Source: Candidatus Poseidoniales archaeon
GTDB lineage: Archaea > Thermoplasmatota > Poseidoniia > Poseidoniales > Poseidoniaceae
Reading direction: 5' to 3'
Assembly: GCA_009887135.1 (NCBI GenBank)
Contig: QXYA01000101.1
Location: forward strand, 1-50,964
DNA length: 50,964 bases
The position numbers and the translations under genes are program-made. The notes beneath the pieces are model-generated. The model worked only from the letters and a program-made list of their open reading frames with translations, had not been told where the DNA came from and did not search any database. Of this stretch, positions 12,823 through 47,257 are shown piece by piece (position 1 is the first letter of the stretch; each line of letters begins with the position of its first letter).

Positions 12823-12947
12823 GAAACGGCACCATTTTTACTCCTATCAAACGTGTGCCTCAGACGTATAATCAACCTATTGTTTAAATCCCCTCGACGA
12901 ACGGTGTTCGCGTTAAGGTCAGTGAAATATCTGGCAGAGGGATTGGG

Positions 12948-18615: not shown

Positions 18616-19911
18616 TTAAGCACGATATGCTTCAAGTATCTCTGAAACTTTAGTTTGAGTAATTGGTCCATCGTGTTCAATCAAGAGTTTCGCAACATCC
18701 TCTATTTCTTTACCTTCTGCACCAGCACTGACGGCCATATTCCTTGCGTGGAGTCTCATGTGACCTTTCTGTATCCCGCTTGTAGCAAGTGCTCTAAGGG
18801 CTCCTAGATTCTGAGCAAGTCCTGCTGCAGCCATCACTGAAGCGAGTTCTTGAGCAGATTCAACACCGAGAATTTCGAGGTTCGTTCGGGCAACAGGATG
18901 TACTTTGGAGGCGCCTCCAACAATCCCAACCGCCATAGGCGTCTCAATTGAACCAACCAGATTACCTTCTGAATCAAGTTCCCAGTGAGTCATGGATCCA
19001 TATCTGCCTTGTGAATAGGCAACATACGCATGACAGCCTGCTTCGATTGCTCTCCAATCTTGGCCACATGCTACAGCAACGGCTGATATGCCGTTCATGA
19101 CGCCTTTGTTATGCGTTGCAGCCCTGTATGGGTCTGCAACTGCAAAATGGTATGCTTCAAGTATGCCTTCAATGATTTTGGAACCATCGAGTTTTTCCCC
19201 GGAGTTACTAATTTCCTCCGGAGTGAACGTAGCCCTTACACGTGCAAGTCTTTCAGTGGCTAGATTGCTTAGAATCCGTAACAAAGCCCTCCCATTGGTT
19301 ATTCGTTCGAGTTCTGGTGCCAGGAGTTCAGCCATTGTATTGACGGCGTTTGCCCCCATCGCATCTCTGCAGTCTACGTGAATGTGGACGATAAACATCT
19401 GTCCCGAGAGAGTTTCTATGCTTCGAGTTGTGATATCTTTGCATCCTCCTCCTAGACGTACCATGGTCGAAGGTAAGCTGTTTGCCAATTTGATTAAGGT
19501 ATCCTTATTCTCAAGAACTCCTTGTTTTGCCTCATCATGATCGTCAATATCTAGGAGTTGAATTTGAGCAATCATCATTGGTCCATCATTGCTTGATGTG
19601 AAACCTCCATGCACATGACAACGCTTAGCCATGTTCGATGCAGCAGCGACAACGCTTGATTCTTCAAGACAAAATGGGATGACATAGTGCTTTTCGTCGA
19701 TGATGAAGTTTGTTGCAACCCCGACTGGGAGGGACATCGTTCCAATGACATTCTCAATCATTCGATCTGCTGCACTATCGTCCAGTTCTCCGTTTTTCGC
19801 TAACGCAGCAACTTGTTCAGGGAGAAGATTAGAACTTTCTGCAATAAGTTGTCGTCGTTCAATGACAGACAGTTTGTAGAATCCTTTCAAGCGGCTGTTA
19901 TTGACAGGCAT
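18616..19911 (-). CDS. mvaA: Hydroxymethylglutaryl-CoA reductase, class II type
   Basis: 'LPVGVATNFIIDEKHYVIPFCLEESSVVAAASNMAKRC', 'HVDCRDAMGANAVNTMAE', 'HNKGVMNGISAVAVACGQDWRAIEAGCHAYV'; start set at MPVNNSRL. Confidence 0.95.
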   Translation of the reverse strand: MPVNNSRLKGFYKLSVIERRQLIAESSNLLPEQVAALAKNGELDDSAADRMIENVIGTMSLPVGVATNFIIDEKHYVIPFCLEESSVVAAASNMAKRCHVHGGFTSSNDGPMMIAQIQLLDIDDHDEAKQGVLENKDTLIKLANSLPSTMVRLGGGCKDITTRSIETLSGQMFIVHIHVDCRDAMGANAVNTMAELLAPELERITNGRALLRILSNLATERLARVRATFTPEEISNSGEKLDGSKIIEGILEAYHFAVADPYRAATHNKGVMNGISAVAVACGQDWRAIEAGCHAYVAYSQGRYGSMTHWELDSEGNLVGSIETPMAVGIVGGASKVHPVARTNLEILGVESAQELASVMAAAGLAQNLGALRALATSGIQKGHMRLHARNMAVSAGAEGKEIEDVAKLLIEHDGPITQTKVSEILEAYRA

Positions 19912-19967: not shown

Positions 19968-20059
19968 TTAACGCGTTTAACGCTTTAATTAACGCGTTAA
20001 AAAAGCGTTAATGGTGCGTTAATAGGGGTTGTTTATAGATTCTCGTCGTCGGATTAACG
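19968..20059. promoter_or_regulatory. Cluster of TTAACGC / GCGTTAA boxes arranged around the palindrome TTAACGCGTTAA
   Basis: Forward boxes start at 19968, 19977, 19989; reverse boxes end at 20000, 20011, 20022; degenerate ATTAACG at 20053-20059; lies between divergent mvaA and the AAA+ gene. Confidence 0.85.
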
Positions 20060-20092
20060 TGTCCTAACAGGTCTCTCATAGCCCCAAATTCC

Positions 20093-21835
20093 ATGAAAGG
20101 TCATATACTTGTTCGAAGTTGCTCGTACATGCATACTGGAACGGTTGATTTGCGACTACCAAGTCTCCGAAAAGATCCCTTTTCCCAAGGAGCTATCTCG
20201 GCAAAGGAGTCCAACCTTCTTGTTGGAAGGCACTCACACTTCGAAGAGATGGAGAAGAATATCCAATTCAAATCATCTCGAAGGATTCTTCTTGTAGGCG
20301 AATATGGGTCTGGGAAGACTTCATTCGTCAACTGTATTGGCGGTAAGACAAATTTGCACATCCATGTTGACCGAATTGATACAATGAATCCTGGTTTGGA
20401 GTTACTTCGAGATATTTATTCCCAAGTTGTTAATGCCACAGCGCCTAATGATCATAAAAAACTTGAACGAGAACTTGAAGCCTCTCTTCACAACAAAAGA
20501 AATTACTTGCCGTTAATATCAGTTGATGCTGATATGGCTAATATTGCTTCTTTAGAGGCTTGCTTACTGGCCTCAATGCCCTTTTTCGAACGTTTATCTG
20601 CATTGATTGTTGTAGCCGTCAATCCAAATCAAAAATCTCTTCTCTCTGAACAGATAAGAGAACGTTTCGAAGTAAGACTGATGCAGGAATTGGATGTAGA
20701 TTGTGTAAAAGCCCTTGTTGAACGCCGAATTGCGACGTGTTCAAACGAACCCTATCAGATGACTACAGAGGAAGCTGGAAAGGTATTGGCTGCGAGCCGA
20801 AACGGTCATCCAGGATCTATTATCAAAGTTCTACGAGCCGTAATTGATGGTCAGATGTTACCTGAATTACCAAGGAGTTCGATTGCAGAACAGACCGTCA
20901 TCGAACAAATTGCCCCCCCCACTCCTCAAGAAGTTGATGCGAGCCCTTTCAATCAGGAAGAGGAACTACTCGATGAACTTGAATCAGCGGGAATTCCTGA
21001 GCAAGAAGAAGAAACAGATGTCCAAGCTACCGATGAGTGGGAGGATGGGCCTGGTATGTCTGGTACCATGGGCTTTGATCTCAATCTCGAATCACTTGAA
21101 GAACCAATTATGGAGGAAACTAAGGAGAAGCCCATTGAGGATACATATGTGACTGAAGACAGTTTACAACCAGTTGGTATCTTTGGAGGACTTAGAGGTC
21201 GTTGGAAACAGACCAGCCAGTCGATAAACGAGGCAGAAGAACCGGAAGGCGAGTATAAACAACTCGATGGTGCTAATTCCTTATGGGTGAGCAAAGACTC
21301 ACTTACGTTACAGGACGATTCTGAAGAGGATGTTTTAGAGGTTGTAGACGATCAAGAACCTGAAGATCTCATACCGGATTCCTTTGAGTCCGACTACCAA
21401 CAGATGGTTGAAGAAAACACTCCTCTGCCAAACCAATCGATGTTGGAAACACTTACCGATTTACTCTCAAAACTTCTTTCTCCCTCAGGAGATAATACGG
21501 TTTCGAACAAGCTTGCTGAAAGCCTACAAACTCTTTCTCGCCCCAAAATAGGAACTAAAGCAGAACATCCTCTAAAAGTCCAAGTTCTGACATCACTCAC
21601 GAATGCAGAGACGATTGTTGTTTCAATCGCTCAACAACGAACGATATCTCCTTCCGACAAACAGTTGTTGGAGAAATTGAACATTAAACGAGCAAGACTG
21701 TCACAGATTTGTAATCGATTACACAAAGCAGGCATACTTGATGTAAGGATGGTTGGACGGTCGAGAATGTTTGGTCTAACCCGAACAGCACTTGCCCAAA
21801 TGATGGCATGGGGCCTCGTAGGAGGTGATGTGTGA
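20093..21835 (+). CDS. AAA+/Orc-like ATPase with acidic linker and C-terminal winged-helix (MarR-like) domain
   Basis: Walker A 'LLVGEYGSGKTS', Walker B-like 'LPLISVDAD', arginine-rich sensor region 'SEQIRERFEVRLMQEL', acidic ~200 aa linker, C-terminal HTH 'LLEKLNIKRARLSQICNRLHKAGILDVRMVGRSRMFGLT'; start may be ATG 20129. Confidence 0.82.
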   Translation: MKGHILVRSCSYMHTGTVDLRLPSLRKDPFSQGAISAKESNLLVGRHSHFEEMEKNIQFKSSRRILLVGEYGSGKTSFVNCIGGKTNLHIHVDRIDTMNPGLELLRDIYSQVVNATAPNDHKKLERELEASLHNKRNYLPLISVDADMANIASLEACLLASMPFFERLSALIVVAVNPNQKSLLSEQIRERFEVRLMQELDVDCVKALVERRIATCSNEPYQMTTEEAGKVLAASRNGHPGSIIKVLRAVIDGQMLPELPRSSIAEQTVIEQIAPPTPQEVDASPFNQEEELLDELESAGIPEQEEETDVQATDEWEDGPGMSGTMGFDLNLESLEEPIMEETKEKPIEDTYVTEDSLQPVGIFGGLRGRWKQTSQSINEAEEPEGEYKQLDGANSLWVSKDSLTLQDDSEEDVLEVVDDQEPEDLIPDSFESDYQQMVEENTPLPNQSMLETLTDLLSKLLSPSGDNTVSNKLAESLQTLSRPKIGTKAEHPLKVQVLTSLTNAETIVVSIAQQRTISPSDKQLLEKLNIKRARLSQICNRLHKAGILDVRMVGRSRMFGLTRTALAQMMAWGLVGGDV

Positions 21836-22872
21836 TGTCTTGGACAGTTTCATGGTCTTGGCAAGCCCCATCGCGGATTAGTGCAATAGCCGTAATAGAT
21901 GGTCAACTTGCAGTAGCCTATGGTTTGGATTTGATTCTCTTTAATGAGTCCAATGAGATCCAATGGAAGCAAACAATGCCGTTCAAGGTTCACGCTATTT
22001 GTAATGGTGAAGGGACAATTGGTATCCTAGCAGCACACGGTTTCTTTGTTCTGAAAACAGTTGATGGGACCATGCTCCACGAAGGTAGAAGCAGCCCAGG
22101 TGGCTTCTTGCACCTTCTTCATCGACCAGGAGGAGGATGGATTCTTTCTGGGAGAGATGGAAATCTCCACCTTTTCGATTCAAATGGTAAAGGAATTCGC
22201 AGAATTTCCTCTGGGATTGTTCGAAGACTTGTCGGATGGCTAGATCGGGAACATTTGCTATGGCAATCTTCTGAAGGAGTTATTTTATGTGGGCAAATCG
22301 CTAACCAAGACAAACGTAGAGTCATTGATACAACAGTTTGGAGTTGGTGCTCTTTGCTTATGGATGGCCGATTGCTTCTGTTATCTTCCGATGGTCAATT
22401 GTGGGAAGGAACCCCCCATCCATTTGGATGGGATTCCATGAATCGAGTTGAAACAGATTCTCTGGAACCTCTCATGGCTACAAGGGCAGGAGATGGATGG
22501 TGGGTGCTCGGAATTGAAGGGCATCTTGACCATTTAGCTACTGAAAACGAATTATCTCGAATAGGAGATGGTATGGAACTTGGCGATTTACTTCTACGAT
22601 TAGGCCGTAATTCGATGATTACTGCTCGTAGAGATGGTTTGACAAGACGTTGGGTTGATCCTGCTCTTGCAGAAGAAGAAAAGCGGCACAGGCATCAAGA
22701 AGCAGCAGATGCGAAACTTGCTCGTAGCTGGGAAGAACGACGAACATTGTTCCAGAGAGCACAAACTGCAGAGGATGAAGGTCGCCTTTCACGAGCGATC
22801 GAATTGTATGAAGCTCTTGGTAGAAAAGACGACGTAAAGCGTCTCTTAGGGCGACAAAAAGGTGGTGATTGA
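21835..22872 (+). CDS. Beta-propeller-like protein with helical C-terminus
   Basis: Repeated 'GxxxVLSGRDGNLHLFDSNGK / LLLLSSDGQLWE / WWVLGIEGHLDHL' blades, then 'LFQRAQTAEDEGRLSRAIELYEALGRKDDVKRLL' (TPR-like); translationally coupled to the AAA gene (TGATG). Confidence 0.75.
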   Translation: MSWTVSWSWQAPSRISAIAVIDGQLAVAYGLDLILFNESNEIQWKQTMPFKVHAICNGEGTIGILAAHGFFVLKTVDGTMLHEGRSSPGGFLHLLHRPGGGWILSGRDGNLHLFDSNGKGIRRISSGIVRRLVGWLDREHLLWQSSEGVILCGQIANQDKRRVIDTTVWSWCSLLMDGRLLLLSSDGQLWEGTPHPFGWDSMNRVETDSLEPLMATRAGDGWWVLGIEGHLDHLATENELSRIGDGMELGDLLLRLGRNSMITARRDGLTRRWVDPALAEEEKRHRHQEAADAKLARSWEERRTLFQRAQTAEDEGRLSRAIELYEALGRKDDVKRLLGRQKGGD

Positions 22873-23169
22873 ATGGATCCAGGGAAAACGTTGACCGAAG
22901 AGCGAGTTGAACATTATCTCTCAATTACTCGAAAAGCCCGTGAAAAAGCAACACCGCTCGTTCAAGAAGGAAGTCCAGAAGCGGACATGCTCAACACATT
23001 GTTATCTATGGCCGATGACTATTCTTCCGATGCTCAATATTTCTTGAAACAGGGCGATTTCATACGAGCCTTTGGAGCAATAAATTACGCCCATGCCTGG
23101 ATTGACGCTGGAGTTAAATTACGCCTACTAGATGGGCATGGTGATGACGTATTGTTTACGCTACCATAG
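22873..23169 (+). CDS. DUF357-family protein
   Basis: 'VEHYLSITRKAREKA...MLNTLLSMADDYSSDAQYFLKQGDFIRAFGAINYAHAWIDAGVKLRLL' matches the archaeal DUF357 pattern; directly abuts the propeller gene. Confidence 0.87.
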   Translation: MDPGKTLTEERVEHYLSITRKAREKATPLVQEGSPEADMLNTLLSMADDYSSDAQYFLKQGDFIRAFGAINYAHAWIDAGVKLRLLDGHGDDVLFTLP

Positions 23170-23575
23170 ATTCTGAACCTTGTTCATTGGAAATAGAATG
23201 TACGATATTTTTGACTGTATCGATCCCACAAAGGATATCTTTGGCGCGAACTTGTGCAATTTGTATAAATGGCATAAGAGATTGTTCTAATGTGTGTCTC
23301 AAACGATACATGTGAGCAGGTCTCCCGCGATTGCTCTGATTAATAGCACTATGAACAATAAGGTTCATTTCACGAAGTTCATTAATGGCGATACTTACAT
23401 CAGGTTGGCGTAAATGACACTTTGTTTGCAGATCTCTGGATGTCGATGCTCCATGATAATGGAGGCATGTAAGGACAGTGGCCGTATGTGCTTGTATTCC
23501 GAGTTCAATTAGTTGTTTACAAAGAGAGTTATGTAGGATTTTAGAAGGTCTATTGACAGTTGTAGGTTCATCCAT
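23156..23575 (-). CDS. Winged-helix transcriptional regulator (TrmB/MarR-like)
   Basis: 'LGIQAHTATVLTCLHYHGASTSRDLQTKCHLRQPDVSIAINELREMNLIVHSAINQSNRGRPAHMYRL'. Confidence 0.8.
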   Translation of the reverse strand: MDEPTTVNRPSKILHNSLCKQLIELGIQAHTATVLTCLHYHGASTSRDLQTKCHLRQPDVSIAINELREMNLIVHSAINQSNRGRPAHMYRLRHTLEQSLMPFIQIAQVRAKDILCGIDTVKNIVHSISNEQGSESMVA

Positions 23576-25944: not shown

Positions 25945-27129
25945 TCATCCGTTCAGTTTTTTGACAACACGGCCTTCAATTCTGGCAGCAACATCCATTG
26001 GAAGGGCATGCGGCATCGAGATATGGGTCGTTCTTCCACGACCATCACCAACAGTATCTACGCGAGTGTCAATAATGCTCAACCCCTCAATTATTTTGAG
26101 ATATTTCCAAACTGTTGTGTGGCTTCTAGGCTTTACTTCGTATTCTTCACAAACGACCGTGTACATCGATTCTACATCTTTACTTGTCATGAATTCAGTT
26201 TTGCGTAGGCGTCGGCAAATACCCAAAAGAACCAGCATCGGATGGCCTGTTAACTCATCAAGAACATCTTCAGGCATGACCTGAGGTATGGCTTTAGCCC
26301 GTGTTTGAACATGTTCTGGCTCGAGCATGGATTTCCCGTCAGACTCCGCATGTTCGACAGCACCATTGAGTAATTCGATGACTTGACGCGCATCGCCAGA
26401 AGGTGCTGCAGAAGTGGCAATAAGTTTGAGAATTTCTTCAGTCCATGATTGTGGGTTCAGTGCAGCTTCTGCTCGCTGACGAGTAATCGCTAGTAAACCG
26501 TCGTAATCATATGATGGAATCGGCAAATGGTTCGTGTGTCCAAAGCGAGAGATGACTGCATTTTCGAGTACATCAAGAACCTGCTCTTGACTGATTAGAA
26601 TAAGAGAAATCGTCCCACTACCTTCCTGATCTTCATCAATACGAAGGAGTTGGTAAATCAGATCGTTTCCAGATTTTCGCAGCAGGTGATCAACCTCATC
26701 GAGTACAATAATCAGATGTCGTTCATTTGAGCGTAGTAGGCGTCGAAGGCTGTTGAGCAACTCGCCCATTGAAAGTCCTCTATCCGGATGCCCTGCATCC
26801 AATGTCTGAACAATACGTTGTGCGACTCGGACATTTGTTGTTGCATTCCTACAATTGATGTGGACGCTTCTAATCTGACGTTTATTTCTTAGATGATGTT
26901 CAATATCACGACAAAAAGTCCTAGCAAGTAATGTCTTACCACTTCCGACTGGTCCCGTGATGACAACGTTAGCACTACTGTTTGGATGGGATATCGAATG
27001 AAACTTTGCAGCGAGGTTACTTTGAATCTCTCCGCGCCCGACCATCGCTTCTGGCATGAAATCAAAATCCAACGGACCAGGGTCTAGAAGGATAAGACCA
27101 GAACCAATTCGATCAAGGTAGTCGCTCAT
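25945..27129 (-). CDS. cdc6: Orc1/Cdc6 replication initiator
   Basis: 'VVITGPVGSGKTLLARTFCRDIE', 'LIIVLDEVDHLL', C-terminal winged helix. Confidence 0.93.
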   Translation of the reverse strand: MSDYLDRIGSGLILLDPGPLDFDFMPEAMVGRGEIQSNLAAKFHSISHPNSSANVVITGPVGSGKTLLARTFCRDIEHHLRNKRQIRSVHINCRNATTNVRVAQRIVQTLDAGHPDRGLSMGELLNSLRRLLRSNERHLIIVLDEVDHLLRKSGNDLIYQLLRIDEDQEGSGTISLILISQEQVLDVLENAVISRFGHTNHLPIPSYDYDGLLAITRQRAEAALNPQSWTEEILKLIATSAAPSGDARQVIELLNGAVEHAESDGKSMLEPEHVQTRAKAIPQVMPEDVLDELTGHPMLVLLGICRRLRKTEFMTSKDVESMYTVVCEEYEVKPRSHTTVWKYLKIIEGLSIIDTRVDTVGDGRGRTTHISMPHALPMDVAARIEGRVVKKLNG

Positions 27130-27196
27130 GCTGATTGGCTCTTGTCGCCAACCGTTCTTGAACACTCGTACTCAATCAAGAATGAAAAGTAGAGTC

Positions 27197-43078: not shown

Positions 43079-46000
43079 ATGTCCGAACGACGCTCCACTA
43101 AAGCCATCCTTCTCGTTGCTCTTATGCTGGCCTCTGTTGCTGGTCAGGCTGCAGCAAATGAGCAAGACACATCACCCTCTGAAATTGAATCGGAGATGGG
43201 AGTTGTTTACGGCGACCTGTCCTTGTTCGACACCTCCCACGGTTCCGAATATCTGCTGATAGACGAGGACATTCCAGTGGTATCTGCAACATCATTCATC
43301 AAGCAAGCTTGGATTGAAGAAGGGCGTCCTGGAGTCGATGATATCGAGTACCGCCCTTCCATGGCGCGAGCCACCTGCACTCAGCACGTCGTCGGAGATA
43401 CCCTGACAGTCCCAATCTCTGGCGGTTCAACCAATGTTTATGTTGCTAAAACAACCAGTAGCGTCGCTTTCCTCGTACAATCAGGCAGGACTCTTTCCTC
43501 CACTGTTTTACAGAATCTGGCCTCCACGTGGGATCAGACTATCTACCCCACAATGACGACCTACTTCGGTAAAGACTACGGGGACGGTAGAGGCCTTTCG
43601 CCTCCTGACAATGACAACAATTGTCAAGTTGAGATTGTCGTTTATGACATTGATGGGGCATACAATATTGGTGGCTACTTCTCTCCAGGTACTGCGCCAA
43701 CCCGAGACGTTGTGTATGTTGATTTTGCTGACATCACTCTAAACTGGGGCAAATCGATTATTGCACACGAACTCCAACATCTTCTTCACAATGCTCAAGA
43801 TCCATATGAAAACTTGTGGATTGATGAAGGAAACGCAGACGTAGCCATCTATCTCTGCTTCGGAGCCGACAGCACGCTTGCAGGCCATCTTAACGGATGG
43901 ACTCAAGCATCAGACCTGAGTGTACGATGGTGGAATCAAAGGAATGCTGACTACGGTGCTGGATTCATGTTCACCATGTACTTGGCAGATCATCTAGGCG
44001 GTGGCCCAGCAATACGACAACTTGTTCAAGATTCAGCCACAGGTGGTTTAGGGGTTCAAAATTTAGCACTCTCTCCAGTGTCCGGTCAGGCTGGGAAAAT
44101 TGGCCGAACCATGGGGGAAATATTTGCGAACTTTTCAATCGCTGCTACCATTGATTCTGATCAAGGAATTTATGGATACTCTAATTTGGTGCTCAACCCT
44201 TCTTGCGGGGGGAGTACATTCTGTCGAATCCAGCCTGCTGATACCAACTCAAACTGGGCCACTCCTTGGAGTTCCACCGGCCATACAATGGAAGGTTGGG
44301 GCATTCGATCGTTCCAGTTCACTCCGGGTGGGTCCTCACCTGCTCCGCTAACGCTTAGAGTCACGTCAGATGTATCGAACTTTGATGGTGTACTTGTGTA
44401 CAAATCAACCGCAGACGGTCTTTGGTCTGTCCAAGATTTAGATTTCTCCAACAATGTAGCAACAGGCTTGATTCAAGGATTTGGCAATCTTACGGATGAG
44501 GTTCACGCTATCGTTTGGTACGCAAGCACAATCGGCGACTGTGATTACACCTCCTGCGGACCTTCGTACCCACAAGGTACAATCGATATCGAAGCTGCTC
44601 GAATCACATCACCTGCGACAATGATTCTCAACGGAACGACCCTGAGTGATCGTGATGGGGACGGTGTTGACGACACCGCTCAAGCAAACTACTCGATTTT
44701 GTCAAATGCGTTCTTTGAAGATCTTGATGTTGAAATTGCCGTACGTGATAGCAACGGAACAATCGTCGATTCGACCTCTACACGAGTACAAGCCGGTGGA
44801 GGAGTCTATGTTCCTGAGGATGCGTATTTCACCGCTCGTAAATCAGATCAATACACGTTTGAGTTCACAATGAAGGATATGTTAGGGGCAGTTCTCGACA
44901 CTGAAACTACATCGCCTCAAGCTTTAGGAAACATGGCTCCAGTTGCCAACGGATCGGTCTCCACAAACATGAGTCAAACATATGAGAAAATCCAGTTTAC
45001 TGGGGATGGATTTGATGCATGGGGTCTTTCGCTTGACAATAATACACTCCCTTACTTTGACGCTCCAGTCGCTTACGCATGGGATTTTGGAGACAACATA
45101 TCCTCTGGCCTACGTTCACCTCTTCGATACTTCTCACAAGTGGGTGAATACAATACGACTCTACAAATTATGGATATCGGGGGTACTTGGTCAGAACTCG
45201 ACGTGAACGTCGTGAACATAACTGACAATAGCGAACCTCTTCCGATTATTACGGTCAACAATATTGTCGTTGACACCTCGCTTGAGATTCTAACAAATCA
45301 AAGAATTGTCTTTTCTGCATATCAAACAAGTGACAACGTTCCACTCGAATTCCTTCAATTTGATTGGGACTGGGGCGATGGAACTTCTACTAGTAGTGGC
45401 CAAGGACTGTATTCTTCGAACCATGAATGGGGCGATGTCGAGGGGGCGAATGAAACGTTTAATCTCATCCTGACTGTCTCTGATGGAGTAAATATTGGTC
45501 AGAAAACGATTCAAATTATTGTTAACAATCGATTGCCATATCAGATTTTCTCTGATGTTTTGACGACTTACACCTACACGCCTCTGCCAATGCCGGATGT
45601 CTTTACCGACGATGATGGCGAGAATTTTACACTAGAATGGAATTTTGAAGGTGGAGTTAATTTGGATGGTATTGACGTTGATCGCTCAGATGACTTCGCA
45701 ACCACAAATTCAGCATCAATCTATCCATCTCCTGCTTGGAATTTACCTGGGATCAAAAACATCTCAGTCATAATCACTGACGAGGATGGTGGTATCTCCT
45801 CTGCACAACTTCAGGTGAATGTTGTAAATCAATTGCCTGTGGCTAAATATATTGTCAAAGAATCAGGGGCGACAGGGTCTCCTCAGATTGATTTCCTTAC
45901 TGAAAACGCAAAGGTCAATGTCCCTTATACGTTCGACGGACGAACAAGTTTCGACGTCGATGGTACGACGGGAACTTACAACGATGTGTCGTTTAATTGG

Positions 46001-47257
46001 TCGTTCCCGGATGGGACATTCAGCAACAAAACACTTCCAGCGTATTCTTTTACCGAACCAGGTGAACGTATTGTAACCCTCATTGTTACGGATGAAAATG
46101 GAGAAGAAAGTACGCCAAGAGTCATCATTGTCATCGTTGCAAACCCTCTTCCAATCATTGAATTACAGATTTTAGATGCTTGGGTCAATGGAAGTATTTT
46201 GATGGACTCGGATGTCTTCCCTGAGAATGGACTTCCAGATCAATGGTCAAGAACATTTGATGAGAACGGAGTCAACATCGCAATTCCTGGAGCTTTGCTC
46301 TACTTCGATTCAAGTGGAACCAGAGACGGTGACCAGAAGTTCGAAGGTAAGTACGTACCTCTTGAGCAAGAATCTCCTGATTGGAACGGCCTGCTGGAAT
46401 ATACATGGGACTTTGGTGATGCAACCCCTATTGTACATGACCCAATGCCTTGGCACGCCTATGAAATGGCTGGCCTTTACACAGTTAAACTAACTGTCAG
46501 GGATGCATTTGGGACAGGGGATGTAACTCGAGCGGAGTTCCAAGTCCATGTTGATGCGGCTCCTGTGATTGGTGGAATTGATGTTCCTGATGAAATCTAT
46601 GAGGATTATTCTACAGCGGTCGTTGTTAATGTAACCGATTCAGAATCTCTTGCCGACCTCGTCTTCTATAGAGACCTAGATGTTCTTGATGGTTCCAATA
46701 CTGACCGAGATGAAACAATTAGTAATGATTTGGTAATCGAATGGGAAGAGGACCTCTCTTTCGACAAAGATGAAGATGGTGATTCAGAGAATGATTGGTA
46801 TGTTTCGACAAACTCCTTGGCTACACTTACGACAATGAGTTGGGATACCCCCGGAGAAGTCACTGTCCAGGTTCGTGTTTGTGACGGAATGGGTATTTGT
46901 GTTGTAGCAAAACAGGATTTCACAGTCCTCCCTGAACAAGACGCTGATCCTTCATTATCGGACTTCAGTTGGGATGAATGGAAATCTTGGATGGGTGAAG
47001 CTGGCGGAGACGCACTCGGCTTTATCGCTCTCATTATTGCTGCATTAATTCTCGGTTGGCTCGTAATGCGTCAGCCAAATGAACTCGAAGAAGAAGCCAA
47101 GCAAAGTGCGGAAACCTATGAAGTTGAACATGCTGATGATGGGGGATTGCTCGGCATGGATCATCACACTCCGCCGCCTGCTCCAAAGATTCTGTCAAAG
47201 CAAGAAAGGAAGAGCGATGAAAGCGGATACATCCGGCCATTGCGCCGACGTGAGTAA
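43079..47257 (+). CDS. Large secreted, membrane-anchored HExxH metallopeptidase-like protein with multiple PKD domains
   Basis: Signal peptide; 'SIIAHELQHLLHNAQDPYENLWIDEGNADV'; PKD motifs 'YAWDFGDN', 'FDWDWGDGTS', 'FNWSFPDGTF', 'YTWDFGDATP'; C-terminal TM 'ALGFIALIIAALILGWLVM'. Confidence 0.88.
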   Translation: MSERRSTKAILLVALMLASVAGQAAANEQDTSPSEIESEMGVVYGDLSLFDTSHGSEYLLIDEDIPVVSATSFIKQAWIEEGRPGVDDIEYRPSMARATCTQHVVGDTLTVPISGGSTNVYVAKTTSSVAFLVQSGRTLSSTVLQNLASTWDQTIYPTMTTYFGKDYGDGRGLSPPDNDNNCQVEIVVYDIDGAYNIGGYFSPGTAPTRDVVYVDFADITLNWGKSIIAHELQHLLHNAQDPYENLWIDEGNADVAIYLCFGADSTLAGHLNGWTQASDLSVRWWNQRNADYGAGFMFTMYLADHLGGGPAIRQLVQDSATGGLGVQNLALSPVSGQAGKIGRTMGEIFANFSIAATIDSDQGIYGYSNLVLNPSCGGSTFCRIQPADTNSNWATPWSSTGHTMEGWGIRSFQFTPGGSSPAPLTLRVTSDVSNFDGVLVYKSTADGLWSVQDLDFSNNVATGLIQGFGNLTDEVHAIVWYASTIGDCDYTSCGPSYPQGTIDIEAARITSPATMILNGTTLSDRDGDGVDDTAQANYSILSNAFFEDLDVEIAVRDSNGTIVDSTSTRVQAGGGVYVPEDAYFTARKSDQYTFEFTMKDMLGAVLDTETTSPQALGNMAPVANGSVSTNMSQTYEKIQFTGDGFDAWGLSLDNNTLPYFDAPVAYAWDFGDNISSGLRSPLRYFSQVGEYNTTLQIMDIGGTWSELDVNVVNITDNSEPLPIITVNNIVVDTSLEILTNQRIVFSAYQTSDNVPLEFLQFDWDWGDGTSTSSGQGLYSSNHEWGDVEGANETFNLILTVSDGVNIGQKTIQIIVNNRLPYQIFSDVLTTYTYTPLPMPDVFTDDDGENFTLEWNFEGGVNLDGIDVDRSDDFATTNSASIYPSPAWNLPGIKNISVIITDEDGGISSAQLQVNVVNQLPVAKYIVKESGATGSPQIDFLTENAKVNVPYTFDGRTSFDVDGTTGTYNDVSFNWSFPDGTFSNKTLPAYSFTEPGERIVTLIVTDENGEESTPRVIIVIVANPLPIIELQILDAWVNGSILMDSDVFPENGLPDQWSRTFDENGVNIAIPGALLYFDSSGTRDGDQKFEGKYVPLEQESPDWNGLLEYTWDFGDATPIVHDPMPWHAYEMAGLYTVKLTVRDAFGTGDVTRAEFQVHVDAAPVIGGIDVPDEIYEDYSTAVVVNVTDSESLADLVFYRDLDVLDGSNTDRDETISNDLVIEWEEDLSFDKDEDGDSENDWYVSTNSLATLTTMSWDTPGEVTVQVRVCDGMGICVVAKQDFTVLPEQDADPSLSDFSWDEWKSWMGEAGGDALGFIALIIAALILGWLVMRQPNELEEEAKQSAETYEVEHADDGGLLGMDHHTPPPAPKILSKQERKSDESGYIRPLRRRE

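Follow-up and report, generated by a model that had tools for sequence, protein, structure and literature searches.

In archaeal origin-initiator pairs, the gene for an Orc-class AAA+ protein with a winged helix sits next to phased repeats and an AT-rich region. Another group of proteins to consider is the STAND/AAA_16 ATPase-HTH regulators (MalT-like), which combine a nucleotide-switch NTPase with an HTH and have propeller or TPR partner parts. The locus that we describe here has an Orc-like ATPase, a repeat array, and a propeller-like protein, along with a member of the DUF357 family.

The DUF357 family (PF04010, arCOG01224; PDB 2OO2 and 2PMR) has been described in the context of RibL/TagD and DUF555. 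According to one survey, it is found in 463 of 524 archaeal genomes and is a top-priority unknown (PMC6393860). In other archaea, arCOG01224 has been linked to DUF555 and TagD (PMC6393860, PMC9425974), and a fusion of DUF357 to a cytidylyltransferase is described in Halobacterium (PMC3443676). Passages of open papers in which DUF357 occurs as a whole word do not mention a link to the HerA helicase. In the locus that we studied, DUF357 is instead the last gene of an operon with the Orc-like ATPase, and elsewhere in the same phylum it lies beside HerA.

Our window (the whole stretch of DNA that was analysed, 50,964 nucleotides) is a single contig from an 84%-complete assembly. The host belongs to the Poseidoniaceae (marine group II archaea; order Poseidoniales, phylum Thermoplasmatota). 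The features that matter here are:

18616-19911, minus strand: HMG-CoA reductase (HMGR), divergent from the ATPase gene, with the array in their common intergenic region
19968-20022 (55 bp), no strand: array of six TTAACGC sites (three on the plus strand and three on the minus strand) around the palindrome TTAACGCGTTAA
20093-21835, plus strand: Orc-like AAA+ ATPase with an acidic linker and a C-terminal winged helix, 580 amino acids if read from 20093
20101-20111, plus strand: TATA-like element TCATATAC, with GAAA (BRE-like) before it, about 23 bp before the ATG at 20129
21835-22872, plus strand: PROP, a beta-propeller-like protein with seven candidate repeats and C-terminal helical hairpins, 345 amino acids from its ATG (the reading frame is also open from 21832)
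22873-23169, plus strand: DUF357 protein, 98 amino acids, identified by a profile match
25945-27165, minus strand: second Orc1/Cdc6 paralogue (Cdc6-2), with Walker A and Walker B intact in its sequence

A sequence-only reading had proposed a tightly packed, uncharacterised operon of three genes, preceded by a TTAACGC array, and both parts of that proposal hold up. The ATPase, PROP, and DUF357 genes (20093-23169) are translationally coupled and have the geometry of a co-transcribed unit: the first two overlap at TGATG (21833-21837), and the stop codon TGA of PROP runs directly into the ATG of DUF357 (22870-22875).

An Orc-like ATPase with degenerate catalytic residues

The ATPase is probably 568 amino acids long, with its start at ATG 20129 and not at 20093. 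We take ATG 20129 as the start because two close relatives have an in-frame stop codon just upstream of the methionine at residue 13, because this methionine is the start in most relatives, and because a TATA-like CATATAC is conserved between the array and the start of the ATPase. The arrangement suggests that the transcript is probably leaderless.

Pfam matches are weak for the window's ATPase itself, but in its family AAA_16 matched 22 of 24 members (best E = 3.3e-9) and AAA_22 matched 17 of 24. When we compared profiles with hhalign, the ATPase family matched the Cdc6 family with E = 1.1e-7 over 223 columns, whereas eIF2gamma, which also has a P-loop, gave 0.014 and HerA gave 0.15. We therefore place the ATPase in the Orc/Cdc6 branch of AAA+, as had been proposed. 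It resembles archaeal Orc1/Cdc6 (TIGR02928; AAA_22, Cdc6_lid, and Cdc6_C) across the AAA+ core, from the P-loop to the sensor-2 region, and also in having a C-terminal winged helix and in being encoded beside a repeat array. However, the orc1/cdc6 models (TIGR02928 and PRK00411) do not match the ATPase, while the second paralogue in the window scores 9.8e-69. It also differs from Orc1/Cdc6 in its operon partners (PROP and DUF357), in its linker of about 200 amino acids, and in its winged helix, which is nearer to MarR/ArsR. As for the MalT-like regulators, nSTAND1 gave 14.8 bits for the window's ATPase, which is below the cut-off of 27.1, and weak matches in 8 of 24 family members. The ATPase differs from these regulators in that the propeller is a separate gene, the closest profile is Cdc6, and only one putative genomic target site was seen.

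The acidic linker and the C-terminal winged helix that had been noted from the sequence are both present. The linker spans residues 257-450 and is 28% D/E and 4% K/R. It contains two motifs that are candidates for docking of a partner: FDLxLExL (amino acids 328-335), which is present in part of the window's family, and FGGLxxR (amino acids 364-370), which is present in almost all of the ATPases (21 of 24, by pattern). The winged helix (amino acids 485-580) gives weak matches throughout: E = 0.0034 to MarR_2 and 0.087 to Cdc6_C, and by hhalign 0.044 to Cdc6 and 0.0014 to the MarR-like family. Even so, conservation within the family is highest here. Of the 23 invariant columns, 11 are in the last 75 residues, and the invariant columns include R533, R535, S537, and Q538 of the putative recognition helix. 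The AlphaFold model of the ATPase is poor (pLDDT 34).

Throughout the family, catalytic residues have degenerated. In Walker A, 35 of 58 distinct sequences have arginine in place of the P-loop lysine, and the other 23 have lysine. None of the 66 ATPase sequences has an acidic residue directly after the Walker B aspartate, so the Walker B glutamate is absent. In a midpoint-rooted tree, the lysine forms are nested within the arginine forms, but the branches are long and the direction of the change is unsure. In the window's genus, the P-loop lysine is kept and there is an aspartate two residues past the Walker B aspartate, so the ATPase of this genus may still hydrolyse ATP. Because the Walker B glutamate is absent and most members have arginine for the P-loop lysine, we interpret the ATPase as a DNA-binding switch that is gated by ATP rather than as a motor. 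The earlier suggestion of a DNA-associated machine is unlikely to be right in a motor-like sense.

We also considered a role in phage defence, by way of the resemblance to IetA. We rejected this because the match is just 23.8 of 510 bits and covers the P-loop only, and because the locus is fixed across the order and is not patchy. We found no relatives in viral contigs.

The TTAACGC array

The six TTAACGC sites within 55 bp compare to 3.2 expected for the whole 51-kb window, and further half-sites of the array lie at about 20053-20067. The array is found across the order. In 55 Poseidoniales loci, the 420 bp before the ATPase gene contain an average of 4.7 TTAACGC sites, versus 0.22 in shuffles, and 51 of the 55 loci have at least three. 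The commonest spacing between sites in the same orientation is 11 bp (58 cases), and 22 bp is next among reverse-oriented sites. As 11 bp is one helical turn, this is what we would expect for cooperative binding. In all 27 genomes with a match to the pattern of the array core, the match was at this locus only. By eye, TTAACGC is unlike any published ORB repeat that we know of.

Since the array lies between divergent genes in Poseidoniales, it could serve both HMGR and the ATPase. We do not favour the idea that it is an operator for HMGR only. In a sister family that lacks the ATPase (f3), we found no array upstream of HMGR in five loci, which implies that the array accompanies the ATPase and not HMGR. 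Nor is the array tied to a MarR-like neighbour, as it remains in loci without a called MarR-like gene (L058, L060, and L061). It is also kept where the PROP gene is missing (L068 and L071). We rejected a wider TTAACGC regulon: this genome has only one other pair of TTAACGC sites, which is in coding sequence on contig C47, with a DUF87 gene about 400 bp away, and which seems to be fortuitous. A single GCGTTAA at 12910-12916, 32 bp upstream of smc, is shared with the nearest relatives (L005, L006, and L007) and not with other genera. It is probably due to chance or of local significance.

DUF357, PROP, and the gene neighbourhood

The third gene certainly encodes a DUF357 protein, as the sequence-only reading had stated: PF04010 matches with E = 2.9e-21 and 75.7 bits, as compared to a curated cut-off of 29.4. 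The match is full length and the protein is a typical DUF357, helical and 98 amino acids long.

The proposal that the second gene encodes a WD-type propeller with a TPR-like tail fared less evenly. We found no propeller match for PROP in Pfam. Nevertheless, seven candidate blades can be read in its alignment, and pairs of segment profiles scored 20, 17.8, and 14.5, which is above all 63 column-shuffled controls (maximum 12.9). The AlphaFold model was made from a shallow alignment and has low confidence (pLDDT 49.5), but its best 50 PDB matches are essentially propellers. The confident part of the model is the C-terminal helical hairpins, whose matches to TPR are weak. A propeller with a helical tail is thus supported by the repeats and the predicted structure, but not proved.

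The sequence-only reading would have been refuted if the genes were not co-conserved outside this genome, but the operon is conserved well beyond it. In the window's family, 140 of 146 genomes encode the ATPase. In our sample of the phylum, it is present in 43 of 43 genomes of the window's family (f1) and in 38 of 39 genomes of the second Poseidoniales family (f2), and in other lineages we found only short P-loop matches. DUF357 is broader: it is present in 266 of 293 genomes of the Thermoplasmatota. PROP is narrower: in the sample it is present in 43 of 43 genomes of f1 and just 8 of 39 genomes of f2, and we found none outside of Poseidoniales. The f2 genomes that lack PROP keep the ATPase, DUF357, and, where read, the array, and the ATPase abuts or overlaps DUF357 directly (L068 and L070). 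We conclude that the ATPase and DUF357 are the constant core, since they adjoin each other where PROP is absent. A scaffold that is missing from most f2 genomes cannot be obligatory, contrary to the initial picture of a machine with the propeller as a part. The lineages of f2 that retain PROP mostly have larger genomes, and PROP is absent from the smaller-genome genera g12, g13, g14, g16, g18, and g20 (also at L068, L070, and L071). In all, we consider this to be a real, order-wide, and uncharacterised system of the Poseidoniales.

The surrounding block is also conserved. With small losses, the gene order throughout the order is smc, scpA, scpB, HMGR, the array, ATPase, PROP, DUF357, HTH, PIN, eIF2gamma, S6e, Cdc6, Dph2. 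The closeness of smc-scpAB and cdc6 had been taken as a functional hint. Because the whole block is syntenic, including metabolic and translation genes (HMGR, eIF2gamma, S6e, and Dph2), we reject this and do not treat the proximity as independent evidence of a common function. The HTH gene, at 23156-23575 on the minus strand, is convergent with DUF357, is MarR/Lrs14-like, and was not called in several genera. Its best NCBIfam match is MreA, at 76 bits, below the cut-off of 100. At L071:10137-12309 (minus strand), the reading frame of the ATPase is in two parts with a gap of 238 bp, which may reflect a frameshift, an assembly error, or a real split.

Outside of Poseidoniales, the commonest partner of DUF357 in the Thermoplasmatota is HerA. 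In 26 of the 47 loci outside of this order that could be evaluated, and in 18 families, the gene immediately before DUF357 and on its strand encodes a HerA-family ATPase (DUF87, E = 2e-37); the loci were chosen for family spread rather than at random, and another two ran into contig ends. The two genes usually overlap or are a few bases apart; these pairs are among L076-L119 (for example L078:8064-9859 and L081:8298-10111). Some of the other lineages have HerA elsewhere in the genome, and some have DUF357 and no HerA. The Poseidoniales lack an orthodox HerA: a single distant DUF87 protein is present in f1 and almost none in f2. HerA is like the Orc-like gene of the Poseidoniales in lying directly upstream of DUF357, although the two ATPases are unrelated (the E of 0.15 above). 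At L076:9649-10641 (minus strand), a GNAT acetyltransferase domain is either fused to DUF357 or lies in frame with it.

A putative switch and the alternatives

Our preferred reading, to which we assign a probability of roughly 45%, is that the ATPase is an Orc-derived, ATP-gated switch, partnered by DUF357, that assembles on its own TTAACGC array and controls the two promoters that diverge from it. An Orc1/Cdc6-class AAA+ protein would have turned into an ATP-gated DNA-binding switch, whose invariant C-terminal winged helix would bind the helically phased array upstream of its own promoter. With an AAA+ module that would mostly be unable to hydrolyse ATP, the subunits would assemble cooperatively on the repeats, along one face of the helix. 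The nucleoprotein complex would then control both its own operon and HMG-CoA reductase. DUF357, which is on the same transcript, would be the constant partner, and PROP would be an auxiliary subunit that was lost in the smaller-genome lineages. What the sequences show is the structure of the operon, its conservation through the order, the homology to Orc, the loss of catalytic residues, and the conserved, phased array at a single locus; we infer the binding of the ATPase to the array, the regulatory output, and any contact of the ATPase with DUF357 or PROP. The second Cdc6 paralogue, which within its class is specific to Poseidoniales, could be what binds the array instead of the ATPase.

The array could also be a chromosomal replication origin, main or secondary, with the Orc-like protein, with or without Cdc6-2, as the initiator and with DUF357 and PROP as loading factors. 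We think this unlikely. In its favour, the Orc-class gene, the phased repeats, and the AT-rich stretch are arranged as in archaeal origin-initiator pairs, the second Cdc6 is in the same block, just 4-6 kb away, and the array, the ATPase, and the second Cdc6 are all found in Poseidoniales; genomes of the sister family have a single Cdc6 but no array and no ATPase. However, catalytic residues are missing from the ATPase, the orc1/cdc6 models that match Cdc6-2 do not match it, and the repeats, by eye, look unlike ORB. Also, in the complete genome G011 (2.06 Mb), the strand-averaged TA skew at fourfold sites is for the most part above zero over the first 1.2 Mb or so and below zero after that; this is from about 39% of the genome of the only complete relative, and total GC skew was uninformative. 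The skew switches near 0/2.06 Mb and 1.25 Mb, and there is no switch at 0.695 Mb, where the operon is. Because of this, and because the stronger Orc1 match of G011 is at 1.83 Mb, we disfavour the array as the main origin in G011. A broader idea, which we find rather unlikely, is that a diverged, hydrolysis-deficient Orc paralogue, a unique phased site, and DUF357 form an order-wide chromosomal nucleoprotein complex (a secondary origin, a segregation site, or a global switch) that replaces the pairing of DUF357 with HerA seen in other Thermoplasmatota.

Could the operon be housekeeping, with a DNA role of no more than simple autoregulation and a metabolic DUF357? The reported ties of arCOG01224 to DUF555 and TagD (PMC6393860) and the fusion in Halobacterium (PMC3443676) fit this, but an AAA-winged-helix protein and a phased array are DNA-related, and the commonest partner of DUF357 in the Thermoplasmatota is HerA, so we consider it improbable. 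We are more doubtful still of a reading in which the operon is a segregation module that works with SMC-ScpAB and the array is centromere-like or serves to load SMC. There is one array per genome beside an NTPase-HTH gene, and in nearly all genomes it is 2 kb from smc-scpAB; but synteny fixes unrelated genes between and beyond these, we did not find homology to ParA or ParB, and other Thermoplasmatota have smc-scpAB without this operon (at L081, SMC and ScpA are beside HerA-DUF357). Finally, an active, ATP-driven DNA machine composed of an NTPase, a scaffold, and an adaptor seems very improbable. The P-loop lysine in the window's genus and the placement of DUF357 after the HerA translocase elsewhere would suit it, but not the arginine in 35 of 58 sequences, the lack of the Walker B glutamate in every sequence, or the dispensable PROP.

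DUF357, which is universal but unexplained in archaea, gains a testable, DNA-linked setting. Across the Poseidoniales, which are abundant in the surface ocean, it is tied to a putative DNA-binding protein derived from Orc and with a candidate site, and in 18 other families it is tied to HerA. If the reading as a chromosomal nucleoprotein complex were true, then DUF357 would partner DNA-bound ATPases of archaea generally. The change of the P-loop lysine to arginine across most of an Orc-like family is unusual and should be useful for understanding AAA+ switches.

Some other observations may be of interest. The window has a 1392-amino-acid reading frame at 43079-47257 with an N-terminal sequence that resembles a signal peptide. 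Most of the sampled Poseidoniales genomes have two Orc1/Cdc6 genes (window 25945-27165; G000:C167:2315-2515); the more divergent of the two is the one in the operon's block, and genomes of the sister family have one. The TA skew of G011 is weak, and the points where it changes sign, near 0/2.06 Mb and at about 1.25 Mb, are a possible lead to the origin and terminus of Poseidoniales.
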